Assembly: GCA_020721445.1 (NCBI GenBank)
Contig: DYMU01000007.1
Location: 1-64,000 of the forward strand
Direction of reading: 5' to 3'
Origin: Gemmobacter nectariphilus
Lineage (GTDB): Bacteria; Pseudomonadota; Alphaproteobacteria; Rhodobacterales; Rhodobacteraceae
Length of the DNA: 64,000 nucleotides
Below the pieces are notes generated by a model. That model was not told where the DNA came from and did no database searches. It saw only the letters and a program-made list of their open reading frames with translations. The position numbers and the translations under genes were made by a program. Shown piece by piece: positions 37,678 to 50,003 of this stretch. How positions within the stretch are numbered: position 1 is the first letter of the stretch; the number at the start of each line of letters is the position of its first letter.

Positions 37678-37802
37678 TGTCAACCGGCACGCAAAACTGA
37701 CCCCTTATCGGCGCGCAAAATTGACCCCTTGAGGCTGTTGAGATCAGGGCCTGAGCCGACGGAACTGATCACAGAGTGGAGGCGGGTCAGGCCCTGATCG
37801 GG

Positions 37803-45889: not shown

Positions 45890-45914
45890 AATGTGCCGTT
45901 CTTGTTTCTTGCGT

Positions 45915-45933
45915 TATCCCCCCTAGGGGCTTA
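45915..45933. promoter_or_regulatory. Probable RcnR/CsoR-type operator
   Basis: TATCCCCCCTAGGGGCTTA contains the perfect palindrome CCCCTAGGGG inside a C/G tract. RcnR-type regulators bind G/C tracts flanked by short AT-rich inverted repeats. It lies 11 bp before the start of the regulator gene, so autoregulation is likely. Confidence 0.6.
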
Positions 45934-45943
45934 CGGCTTGGAT

Positions 45944-46201
45944 ATGACAGAACCTCATGCACATGCAAGCCACCCTGCCATTGCCACCCGGCTGAAACGT
46001 GCCGAGGGGCACTTGCGCCGTGTGATCGGAATGATCGAGGAGGGGCGGCCTTGCCTTGACCTTGCCACGCAACTGCATGCCGTCGAGCGTGCGGTGGCCG
46101 AGGCGAAGCGGGTGCTGATCCACGACCATATCGACCATTGTGTGACCACAGGAGGTGCGCACGATCTGGCCGAGATCAAATCCCTGACAAAGCTGCTTTA
46201 G
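45944..46201 (+). CDS. RcnR/CsoR-family metal-responsive repressor
   Basis: About 85 residues of the all-helical CsoR/RcnR/FrmR family (MTEPHAHASHPAIATRLKRA, GHLRRVIGMIEEGRPC, HIDHCV). The N-terminal His cluster and the Cys in GRPC are candidate metal ligands, and His at several positions points to nickel/cobalt rather than copper. The ATG at 45944 is preferred; the ORF-track start adds a hydrophobic run that includes the operator. It is followed without a gap by an exporter with a His-rich tail. Confidence 0.85.
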   Translation: MTEPHAHASHPAIATRLKRAEGHLRRVIGMIEEGRPCLDLATQLHAVERAVAEAKRVLIHDHIDHCVTTGGAHDLAEIKSLTKLL

Positions 46202-47509
46202 ATGCTGGGAACCCTGCGCAATCCGACCTTTCGCCACCTGTTCGCCGCGCAGATCGTGGCACTGGTCGGCACCGGGCTTGCCACCGTCGCGCTGGGGCTG
46301 CTGGCCTGGCAACTGGCAGGTGACAACGCAGGTGCGGTGCTGGGCACGGCGCTGGCCATCAAGATGGTGGCCTATGTCACGCTGGCCCCGGTGGCGGCGG
46401 CAATTGCCGAACGCCTGCCACGTCGGGGCTTTCTGGTGGCGCTGGACCTGATCCGCGCAGGCGTGATCGCCTGCCTGCCCTTCGTCGATCAGGTCTGGCA
46501 GATCTATGTGCTGATCTTTTTCCTTCAGGCGGCCTCGGCGGGTTTTACCCCGGCGTTTCAGGCGGTCATCCCCGATGTGCTGAAGGACGAGGGCGACTAT
46601 ACCAACGCCCTGTCGCTGCTGCGGCTGGCCGAGGATCTGGAGCAACTCGCCTCGCCCATGATCGCGGCGCTGCTGTTGACCGTGGTCAGCTTTCCGGTGC
46701 TGTTTGCAGGCACGGTGGTGGGGTTTGTCGCATCCGCCCTGCTGGTGGTGACAGCGCATCTGCCAGATCGGGTGCGTGCCGATAACAGCCATTTCCGGGC
46801 CGACGTGACCAAAGGGGTTCGCATCTACACCCGCACCCCCCGCCTGCGCGGGTTGATGGTGATGGAGGCTGCGGTCGCCGCCGCCGGGGCGATGGTCTAT
46901 GTCAACACGGTGGTTCTTGTGCAGGCACGGCTGGGTCTGGGTGAACAGGCCGTCGCACTGGCCTTTGCCGGTTTTGGCGCGGGGTCGATGCTGGCGGCGT
47001 TTATGCTGCCGCGCATCCTTGACCGGTTGGAGGATCGCCCGGTGATGATCGGCGGCGCGGCGCTGATGGTGGCGGGCGTGGCGCTGGTGCCGCTGGTGGG
47101 CAGCCTTGCCGCGCTGATTGCCCTTTGGGCCATCATCGGCTTTGGTTTTTCGCTGACGCAAACCCCCATTGGGCGGATCATCAACCGATCCGCGCGCGAA
47201 GCCGACCGGGGTGCCGTCTTTGCCGCGCAATTTGCGCTGTCGCACGCCTGTTGGCTGGTGACCTATCCGCTGGCAGGCTGGATCGGCGCCGGGGCGGGGC
47301 TAGGCGTCGCCGCACTTGTCCTTGCCGGGATCGGCGCGCTTGGGCTTGTGGCCGTGCTGCGCATCTGGCCTGCACAGGATGCCAGCGAACTGGCCCATGA
47401 TCACCCCGACCTGCCACCTGACCACCCGCATCTGGCCGAACACGGGCCCCATCACGCCCATAGCTTCGTGATCGACGACCTGCACCGCCGCTGGCCGCGC
47501 GCGGCCTGA
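46202..47509 (+). CDS. NreB-like MFS metal exporter with His-rich C-terminus
   Basis: A 435-residue MFS transporter with about 12 membrane segments (MLGTLRNPTFRHLFAAQIVA). The last 40 residues are rich in His (ELAHDHPDLPPDHPHLAE, HGPHHAHS), as in NreB-type nickel exporters. It starts one base after the stop of the RcnR-type gene, so repressor and exporter form one operon for nickel/cobalt efflux. Metal identity is inferred. Confidence 0.82.
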   Translation: MLGTLRNPTFRHLFAAQIVALVGTGLATVALGLLAWQLAGDNAGAVLGTALAIKMVAYVTLAPVAAAIAERLPRRGFLVALDLIRAGVIACLPFVDQVWQIYVLIFFLQAASAGFTPAFQAVIPDVLKDEGDYTNALSLLRLAEDLEQLASPMIAALLLTVVSFPVLFAGTVVGFVASALLVVTAHLPDRVRADNSHFRADVTKGVRIYTRTPRLRGLMVMEAAVAAAGAMVYVNTVVLVQARLGLGEQAVALAFAGFGAGSMLAAFMLPRILDRLEDRPVMIGGAALMVAGVALVPLVGSLAALIALWAIIGFGFSLTQTPIGRIINRSAREADRGAVFAAQFALSHACWLVTYPLAGWIGAGAGLGVAALVLAGIGALGLVAVLRIWPAQDASELAHDHPDLPPDHPHLAEHGPHHAHSFVIDDLHRRWPRAA

Positions 47510-47515
47510 TCCGCC

Positions 47516-47941
47516 CTATTTGCCGAAATCGGCCATGGTGATCCCGCCGTGGCCGTTCTTGTCCAGCTTGGCAAACCAGCGGTCAGCCCCGGACAGGAAC
47601 TCGGCCTCGGACACGCGCCCGTCACTGTCTTGATCGCTGGCGGCCAGACCCATGGCATCGGCCACCTTTTGCATCTGGGCGCGTTCCGGGCCTTGATAGG
47701 CGTCGACATCATTCTGGCGGGCCTCGTCGAACATCACATACTCGGTCGCGTCGATGAACCCATCGTCGTTGGCGTCAAAGGTGACAAAGACGCTGCTGCG
47801 CATTTCGCGCAGTTCTTCGACGGTTGCGGTGCCATTGCCGTTCAGATCCCAGTTGGCAAGAAACTGATCCCCCGGCGTTGTCTGGGCGAACAGGGCGGTG
47901 GCAGACAGAAGAAGTGCGGCTGTGGTCACACGCAGGATCAT
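47516..47941 (-). CDS. Secreted EF-hand calcium-binding protein
   Basis: A 141-residue protein with a signal peptide (MILRVTTAALLLSATALFAQ) and several EF-hand loops (DLNGNGTATVEE, DANDDGFIDATE, DQDSDGRVSEAE, DKNGHGGITMAD). It is probably a periplasmic Ca2+-binding protein. It lies next to a cytochrome b561 gene and a second EF-hand gene on the same strand. Confidence 0.85.
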   Translation of the reverse strand: MILRVTTAALLLSATALFAQTTPGDQFLANWDLNGNGTATVEELREMRSSVFVTFDANDDGFIDATEYVMFDEARQNDVDAYQGPERAQMQKVADAMGLAASDQDSDGRVSEAEFLSGADRWFAKLDKNGHGGITMADFGK

Positions 47942-48058: not shown

Positions 48059-48562
48059 TCAGTGTGCCGGACGGATCATCCGCGCCAATACGTTGTTTTT
48101 CAGCACGATCTTGTGGAAGGGCACGGCCAGCACGTGCAGCGCGACCAAGGCCAGCAGAACCACCTTCAGCACATTGTGCACCTGCGCCGCAGCGGTGACA
48201 TCGCCGAACCAGGCCAGTGATCCCGATACCGACATCAGCGCCAGCACGGCATAGAACGCCCAATGCGCGAAATGGCTGAGGGTCTTCAGCGGGGCAGGCT
48301 CATTCTCGGGCTGCAGCGGCACGCCGCGCTTCAGGCGCAGCACCAGGCGCCACAGGACGAAGGCAAGGATCAGCGCGCCACCGGCCACATGGGCAAGGAT
48401 CAGCGGATCAAAAGCGAAGTCTTGCCCGGCGCGAATGGCCTCCCATGCGCCCGAGATCGAGTCCTTGAAGATATATTGCCCGGCAACAAGGGCGGCGACG
48501 GCCCAGTGCAGGCCGATTTGAGTGCGTGAGTAACCGGTTGGATGTGTCATGGTTTTGTCCAT
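48059..48562 (-). CDS. Cytochrome b561
   Basis: About 167 residues with four membrane segments. His residues in IGLHWAVAALVAG, ILAHVAG, FAHWAFYAVLAL and VALHVLAVPFHKIV match the di-heme ligands of bacterial cytochrome b561. It moves electrons between the quinone pool and a periplasmic partner. The start is not certain; ATG codons at 48562 and 48550 are both possible. Confidence 0.88.
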   Translation of the reverse strand: MDKTMTHPTGYSRTQIGLHWAVAALVAGQYIFKDSISGAWEAIRAGQDFAFDPLILAHVAGGALILAFVLWRLVLRLKRGVPLQPENEPAPLKTLSHFAHWAFYAVLALMSVSGSLAWFGDVTAAAQVHNVLKVVLLALVALHVLAVPFHKIVLKNNVLARMIRPAH

Positions 48563-48607
48563 CAATGTGTCTGGCGGACGCAGGTCACGCCCGCCAGTGA
48601 GGCTTGA

Positions 48608-49125
48608 TTACGGCTGGACCGGTTGGGTCACGGGGATATCGGTCAGCCGACCCATCCGCGCCATCATCTTGACCGGGAAGGTCATCTGCTCGGCGCTGAT
48701 TACGTTGTCGCCGTCATCGTCCAGCATGGCGAAGGGCCGCGCCGCCATCGACTTGGTCACTTCGGCAAACAGCGCGCCAAACTCGGCTTCCGACAGGGTG
48801 CCGGATTTGTCGGCGTCATGGGCGGTCAGCAGCGCGGTGACACCCGCCTCGGCTTCGGCGGCGGTGACCCTGCCATCCTTGTCGGCGTCAAAGGATTGCA
48901 ACACCGGGTTGTCGGCCAGACCCGCCATGCCCATCGGTCCGCCATGCCCATCGGTCCGCCATGCCGCATATCAGCACGCCCCATGTCATTGTGCCCCATC
49001 ATTGGGCCCGGCCCCCAGCCGCCCATGCCCCAGGGTCCACCCCCCGCGATGGCCGGAATGGAAGCCGCGCCAATCACCGCCACGGCGGCGACAGCACCAA
49101 GCGTCAGGATCGTTTTGCGTTTCAT
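48608..49125 (-). pseudogene. Secreted EF-hand protein frameshifted by a 17-bp tandem duplication
   Basis: The 5' part starts MKRKTILTLGAVAAVAV, a signal peptide, followed by a Gly/Met/His-rich stretch (GGWGPGPMMGHNDMGRADM). At 48924-48965 a 17-bp unit is present twice plus a partial copy, shifting the frame. The 3' part (MAGLADNPVLQSFDADKDGR, HDADKSGTLSEAEF, DDDGDNVISAEQ) carries three EF-hand loops in another frame. Removing one 17-bp unit restores one continuous protein of about 167 residues. As it stands, the EF-hand part could be made only from an internal start, without a signal peptide. Confidence 0.8.
48924..48965. repeat. 17-bp tandem repeat, 2.5 copies, in EF-hand gene
   Basis: The unit is GCCATGCCCATCGGTCC, present at 48924-48940 and 48941-48957, followed by the first 8 bases again. 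Because 17 is not a multiple of three, each gain or loss shifts the frame. Confidence 0.9.
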
Positions 49126-49217
49126 GATCTTACCTCATCAGGTTTGTTTCGATGAGGCCAAGATGGCGGGGCTTTGTCGCCCGTTCATGCCAGACCGGGG
49201 CCTGAATTGTATCGGTC

Positions 49218-49242
49218 TGTCGCAAGGACCGGCTTTGCGACA
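49218..49242. promoter_or_regulatory. Perfect 8-bp inverted repeat upstream of response regulator
   Basis: TGTCGCAA-N9-TTGCGACA lies 54 bp before the response regulator start and about 95 bp before the divergent EF-hand gene. It is a plausible operator for both, perhaps bound by this response regulator. No T-run follows, so it is not a terminator. Confidence 0.55.
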
Positions 49243-49295
49243 CAGCGATACGCAAATCCTGCGCCTTTTTTTCAGGCCGGGGCTTTGAAGGGCAG

Positions 49296-50003
49296 ATGAC
49301 AGACACAGCCCCCCATATCCTTGTGGTCGATGACCACCGCGACATCCGTGACGCCGTCACGCGCTATCTGGAAAAGAACGGCATGCGGGCCACGCCTGCG
49401 CGCGACACGGTTGAAATGGACGCGGCCCTGAAGGCCGGGCGGTTCGATCTGATCGTGCTGGATGTGATGATGCCGGGCGAGGACGGCCTGTCTGCCGCAG
49501 AGGGGCCACCGATCCTGATGCTCAGTGCGCTGGCCGAAGAAACCGACCGCATCGTGGGGCTTGAAATCGGGGCCGATGATTATCTGGTCAAGCCGTTCAA
49601 CCCGCGTGAACTTCTGGCCCGGATCAAGGCGATCCTGCGCCGGGCCGACCGGCCCGAACCGATGGCGGGCAGTCTTGGTGGCCGCAAGCTGGGGTTTGCC
49701 GGTTGGGTGCTGGACACCGACACCCGCGCGCTGACCCATGAAGAAGGGCGCCAGGCGCTGCTGACCACAGCAGAGTTCAAGCTGCTGACGGCGTTTCTGG
49801 AACGCCCGCGCTTTGTTCTGTCGCGCGATCAGCTGCTGGACATCACCAGAGGACGGACGGCCGAGGTCTTTGACCGCACCATCGACAATCAGGTCAGCCG
49901 GTTGCGCCGCAAGATCGAAACCGATGCCACCCAGCCAAAGATCATCGCAACCATTCGGGCGGGGGGCTACAGCCTTGCCGCCGATGTGTGGGCGATAGGC
50001 TGA
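49296..50003 (+). CDS. OmpR-family response regulator
   Basis: A 235-residue regulator with a receiver domain (HILVVDDHRDIRDAV, phospho-acceptor Asp in IVLDVMMPGEDG, KPFNPRELLARI) and a winged-helix DNA-binding domain (DRTIDNQVSRLRRKIE, IRAGGYSLA). The stretch between MMPGEDGLS and PPILMLSA is about 7-9 residues shorter than usual, removing much of helix 3 of the receiver. A GAAGGGCAG site precedes the ATG. The kinase gene overlaps its stop. Confidence 0.88.
   Translation: MTDTAPHILVVDDHRDIRDAVTRYLEKNGMRATPARDTVEMDAALKAGRFDLIVLDVMMPGEDGLSAAEGPPILMLSALAEETDRIVGLEIGADDYLVKPFNPRELLARIKAILRRADRPEPMAGSLGGRKLGFAGWVLDTDTRALTHEEGRQALLTTAEFKLLTAFLERPRFVLSRDQLLDITRGRTAEVFDRTIDNQVSRLRRKIETDATQPKIIATIRAGGYSLAADVWAIG

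Follow-up and report, generated by a model that had tools for sequence, protein, structure and literature searches.

Two kinds of event or locus are among the closest known counterparts of the locus presented here. Duplications made by slippage in penA of Burkholderia thailandensis arose from a template that is bordered by a direct repeat (PMC4169377). At the contingency loci of Neisseria, Haemophilus and Campylobacter, the copy number of a coding repeat sets the reading frame, and a locus counts as phase variable when changes in both directions occur above a rate that is detectable without selection (PMC11868660). In the window (the whole stretch of 64,000 nucleotides of Gemmobacter nectariphilus DNA analysed here), a gene for a secreted EF-hand protein is interrupted by a 17-bp tandem duplication. 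We consider it likely that this is a recent slippage frameshift that inactivated an accessory gene within a decaying module; reversion at low frequency would be possible, but the array would not be an evolved switch.

A 17-bp tandem duplication splits an EF-hand gene

The duplication and the reading frames around it are as follows.

48608..49125, minus strand: EF-hand protein gene of 518 nt, frame broken; intact relatives have single open frames of 167-191 codons
48826..49125, minus strand: truncated ORF of 99 aa, comprising a signal peptide and a Met/Gly/His-rich linker, then an out-of-frame tail to the stop
48608..48934, minus strand: out-of-frame EF-hand half, 108 aa counted from an internal ATG inside the repeat, with three EF loops
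48922..48965, no strand assigned: 17-bp tandem array, 2.6 perfect copies, 44 bp

The 17-bp unit, CCGCCATGCCCATCGGT, is present in two exact full copies (48922-48938 and 48939-48955) and a third, partial copy of 10 nt, so that the array has a period of 17 with 100% matches. Its score of 88 is the highest among the 38 tandem arrays in the window; the second-best score belongs to an imperfect 24-bp tandem repeat of 1.9 copies at 37685-37730. Because the unit lies in a coding region and its length is not divisible by 3, the frame is shifted at 48922-48965. On the minus strand, the array separates the signal-peptide and linker frame, which starts at 49125, from the frame with three EF-hands, which ends at 48608. 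The initial annotation had described exactly this, an exact 17-bp duplication shifting the frame between signal peptide and EF-hands, and both the event and the span given for it (48608-49125) are borne out by the two exact copies and the split frames.

The ATG frame at 49125 begins MKRKTILTLGAVAAVAVIGAASIPAIAGGGPWG and meets a stop at 48826 after 99 aa; a profile search with this truncated product returned no match. The EF-hand half contains no further stop codon and scores above the Pfam EF-hand gathering cut-offs of several models (PF00036, 40.8 bits vs a cut-off of 25.4). Two more specific assignments for it were rejected. Similarity to the XopAW-type effector (NCBIfam NF041410) reached 34.9 bits against a cut-off of 120, reflecting generic EF-hand similarity only, and similarity to lanmodulin (NCBIfam NF053806) reached 29.9 bits against a cut-off of 135. 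Searches for Sigma-70-type promoters and terminators found none in the region.

The duplication is absent from intact orthologues

Orthologues were found in Ciceribacter (77% identity), in Defluviimonas (75%) and on a Shinella plasmid (78%), as well as in Limibaculum, Shinella pollutisoli, Xanthobacter, a Cypionkella bin, a Paracoccus aminophilus plasmid and two members of the window's family. The intact orthologues, at 58-78% identity, each encode in one frame a signal peptide, a Met/Gly/His-rich linker of variable length and three EF-hands. A check for a single copy in related strains, named with the initial annotation as part of what would refute its reading, was run on these relatives, and every intact one carries a single copy at the site of the window's duplication. 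The 17-bp tract was present in none of the orthologues compared, and is neither conserved nor variable in copy number there. Since no intact orthologue has more than a single copy or an interrupted frame, the comparison indicates that the duplication is derived and private to the window's assembly.

The signal peptide lies in the EF-hand frame at 58 of 61 distinct homologue loci, a count that comes from an automatic check and includes the Cypionkella copy, whose upstream sequence is unrelated. The three exceptions are the window, a Xanthobacter copy with a stop and a frameshift, and the P. aminophilus copy, which has lost its N-terminus. The N-terminus is lost from both the Cypionkella and the P. 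aminophilus copies, each by a different lesion. These differing lesions look like repeated loss of a dispensable gene and not like a conserved switch. It should also be noted that in Xanthobacter autotrophicus AM3 (L064/L100, L097) the internal stop and the signal-peptide frameshift lie in one copy, and an intact paralogue is present on another contig.

Among 15 congeners, no orthologue above 46% identity was found; the homologues there are distant (about 40% identity) and have different linkers, and the congeners were set aside as a source of informative comparisons. Orthologues were rare in the sampled families, occurring in 2 of 397 genomes of the window's family and 2 of 349 of Ciceribacter's family, and the loci of two relatives are on plasmids. 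This rarity indicates that the module is accessory and patchily distributed, and that it probably moves horizontally.

Origin of the duplication

In the single-copy form of the window's coding sequence, GGCATGGCGG forms a 10-nt direct repeat with a spacing of exactly 17 nt. The second copy lengthens the match at offset 17 to 27 nt. A 10-nt repeat at this spacing is, as a predicted substrate, a textbook slippage template. The array also shows the features of a de novo tandem duplication mediated by direct repeats, as it has two units, is bordered by a short direct repeat and is absent from relatives. The linkers of intact relatives contain direct repeats of 9-15 nt as well, all spaced by multiples of 3, as is expected where the frame is under selection.

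We propose that the locus began as a single-copy accessory gene for a secreted EF-hand protein with a Met/Gly/His linker. Replication would then have slipped between the 10-nt repeats, copying the unit once. The resulting 17-bp duplication would break the frame and leave a truncated, presumably non-functional product, and the EF-hand half, having no signal peptide, would not be exported. The whole regulator/EF-hand/cytochrome-b561 module would be in the course of being lost in this strain, and rare reversion is conceivable, as for any short tandem duplication.

The array exceeds chance expectation

For comparison, perfect arrays were collected from 433,564 bases of the same genome, comprising the window, the remainder of its contig and parts of three other contigs. 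Only two had a period of 17: the gene-breaking array and one that is intergenic and unrelated to it. With the exception of one 10-bp array, which sits in a reading frame that stays open, the remaining perfect arrays of this sample with a period of at least 10 had periods that were divisible by 3 or were multiples of the intergenic array. The array at 48922-48965 is the only perfect tandem duplication that breaks a gene in the 434-kb sample. Ten Markov-simulated samples contained no array above period 15, and chance does not account for the array.

We also considered whether the array belongs to a genome-wide family of such repeats. This was rejected: the 27-nt core has no second occurrence in the genome when up to 2 mismatches are allowed, and the other 17-bp array is intergenic and unrelated in sequence. 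That second array (GGGAAAAGCCAAGGCTG, 4.5 perfect copies; L093 4958-5034, contig C48:34958-35034) lies between genes that resemble those for the substrate-binding protein and the permease of a urea transporter. As a candidate for copy-number variation, it is preferable to the array of the EF-hand gene.

The surrounding module carries further private changes

The broken gene is flanked by the following features.

49296..50003, plus strand: response regulator of OmpR type, its receiver domain shortened by an in-frame deletion of 6 residues
49988..51379, plus strand: sensor histidine kinase, intact
49209..49251, no strand assigned: inverted repeat between the divergent genes, 17-nt arms with 2 mismatches in the window
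48059..48565, minus strand: cytochrome b561-type gene, intact, downstream of the EF-hand gene; adjacency conserved in relatives
47516..47941, minus strand: second small secreted-type EF-hand protein, intact

Shinella has the same gene order, namely histidine kinase, response regulator, divergent EF-hand gene and cytochrome b561. Strong conservation extends to the intergenic region, whose inverted repeat consists of GTATCSGTCTGTCGCA and the complement. In Defluviimonas, Ciceribacter and Shinella the inverted repeat is perfect, with 16-nt arms 9-11 nt apart and a compensated change, and it is probably the operator of the response regulator. Set against these three closest relatives, the two mismatches of the window's repeat are in keeping with decay of the module. 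A literature search on EF-hand/cytochrome b561 modules returned nothing specific. Two observations concern the neighbourhood. In the Defluviimonas bin (L060 5381-5877), the cytochrome b561 gene beside the intact EF-hand gene gives matches in two frames, which points either to a broken frame or to an error in the bin. In the window, the plus-strand region 45893-47509 encodes a CsoR-type metal-sensing repressor (Pfam Trns_repr_metal) and, after it, an MFS transporter whose C-terminus is rich in His; their position near two secreted EF-hand genes suggests a metal-response setting.

The deletion in the response regulator removes 18 bp after GLSAA, at the third helix, and retains the phosphorylation-site residues. 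It was found in none of 13 aligned homologues, all of which are full length there. The response regulator may tolerate the loss of these six residues. In the EF-hand half, position 12 of the third EF loop is Q in the window alone and E in all other homologues. This substitution (E83Q) affects a calcium ligand and is the window's sole change at 28 otherwise invariant EF-domain positions. Since the other, intact relatives have 0-6 unique EF changes, one altered ligand provides thin evidence of relaxed constraint. The dN/dS of the EF-hand half is 0.10-0.20, compared with 0.13 between intact relatives; such a low value, like that of intact pairs, argues that the break is recent. Comparisons with the signal peptide of the Ciceribacter locus (L059), which had been taken one codon out of register, were left out. 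Each private change is by itself weak evidence of decay, the regulator deletion being the strongest. Together, such changes in the neighbourhood of a frame break that is likewise private suggest decay of the module, and the receiver-domain deletion in the divergent regulator makes it probable that the module is being lost.

Alternatives to a slippage frameshift

The initial annotation had offered a reversible switch and a recent mutation side by side. The mutation is favoured by the single copy in intact relatives, the slippage template and the further private lesions; nothing positive emerged for the switch.

Phase variation would mean that the 17-bp array changes copy number often enough to toggle the secreted EF-hand protein within a population, which we regard as unlikely. 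The unit length (not a multiple of 3), the location in the N-terminal part, the perfect copies and the preservation of the rest of the gene, with the low dN/dS of its EF-hand half, are all as expected for such a locus, and a perfect array followed by an EF-hand half that is free of further stops would also fit a switch in its OFF state. Furthermore, reversion rates of 9e-7 to 3.6e-5 under selection are on record for two-copy duplications in a coding region (PMC4169377), and M. tuberculosis populations show internal variation in promoter repeats of about 50 bp with 2-3 copies (PMC12817950). However, 2.6 copies are too few for hypermutability, the array occurs in no relative, and the lesions of the other damaged homologues lie elsewhere and are of different kinds. 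The altered regulator and EF calcium ligand are likewise at odds with a switch. Phase variation also needs detectable rates in both directions (PMC11868660), and here the duplicating direction would depend on the 10-nt repeat only. Given rates of ~1e-6 to 4e-5 under selection for the reversion of two-copy duplications elsewhere (PMC4169377), a slow return to one copy needs no evolved function to be plausible. A slower version, in which the two-copy out-of-frame duplication acts as a reversible switch, slippage at the linker repeats making and removing OFF alleles and the population keeping both, appears very doubtful to us.

It is quite improbable that the duplication is an assembly or sequencing artefact and that the true gene is single-copy. 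The sequence does come from one draft assembly of 53 contigs, but ordinary reads span a 44-bp array, and assembly errors are expected to collapse copies and not to add them (argued in PMC12817950). When six other genes of the window (51.9-58.7 kb) were compared with their Rhodobacter and Paracoccus plasmid relatives, none had a broken frame, and this counts against an assembly that is faulty in general. The private changes in the same module also make real decay more plausible.

The reading that the EF-hand half is made on its own in the cytoplasm, starting at the internal ATG at 48934, has very little chance of being correct: the 108-aa frame does begin with an ATG and shows conservation, but by eye no good ribosome-binding site precedes that ATG, and relatives export the EF-hand domain. 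In principle, ribosomal frameshifting could join the two half-frames, but programmed frameshifting was rejected, as the interval in which both frames are open (48934 to 48828) contains no visible slippery run, and local DNA folding is no better than that of shuffles (z -0.17).

Comparison with known systems

Our sequence comparisons gave no evidence for a built-in on/off switch. The locus cleanly illustrates how a low-complexity linker can provide short direct repeats from which an inactivating duplication arises, here within a module that is gained and lost among alphaproteobacteria. Should reads show mixed copy numbers, switching by repeats would extend to arrays of two copies with a long unit in bacteria that are not pathogens. 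The module, with its divergent two-component pair, conserved inverted repeat and secreted EF-hand protein, is the more useful by-product.

The nearest relatives of the locus, on the Shinella plasmid (L073) and in Ciceribacter (L059) and Defluviimonas (L060), share its gene order and intergenic inverted repeat, and their EF-hand halves are 75-78% identical to that of the window. Their EF-hand genes are intact, whereas that of the window is frame-broken and accompanied by a regulator with a 6-residue deletion. The array resembles the contingency loci of Neisseria, Haemophilus and Campylobacter in being a coding repeat with a unit length not divisible by 3, which lets copy number set the frame (PMC11868660). 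Unlike them, it has only 2.6 copies, is conserved in no relative, and is not known to vary in copy number or to switch. The penA duplications of B. thailandensis (TR1-TR11) likewise consist of two units in a coding region, with a short bordering direct repeat in TR1-TR3, and the 17-bp unit falls within their range of lengths, 9-60 bp (PMC4169377). The penA units are multiples of 3 and altered activity under drug selection (PMC4169377), whereas the 17-bp unit destroys the frame under no known selection. Like the penA duplications, the array would be expected to revert via slippage or recombination (PMC4169377).
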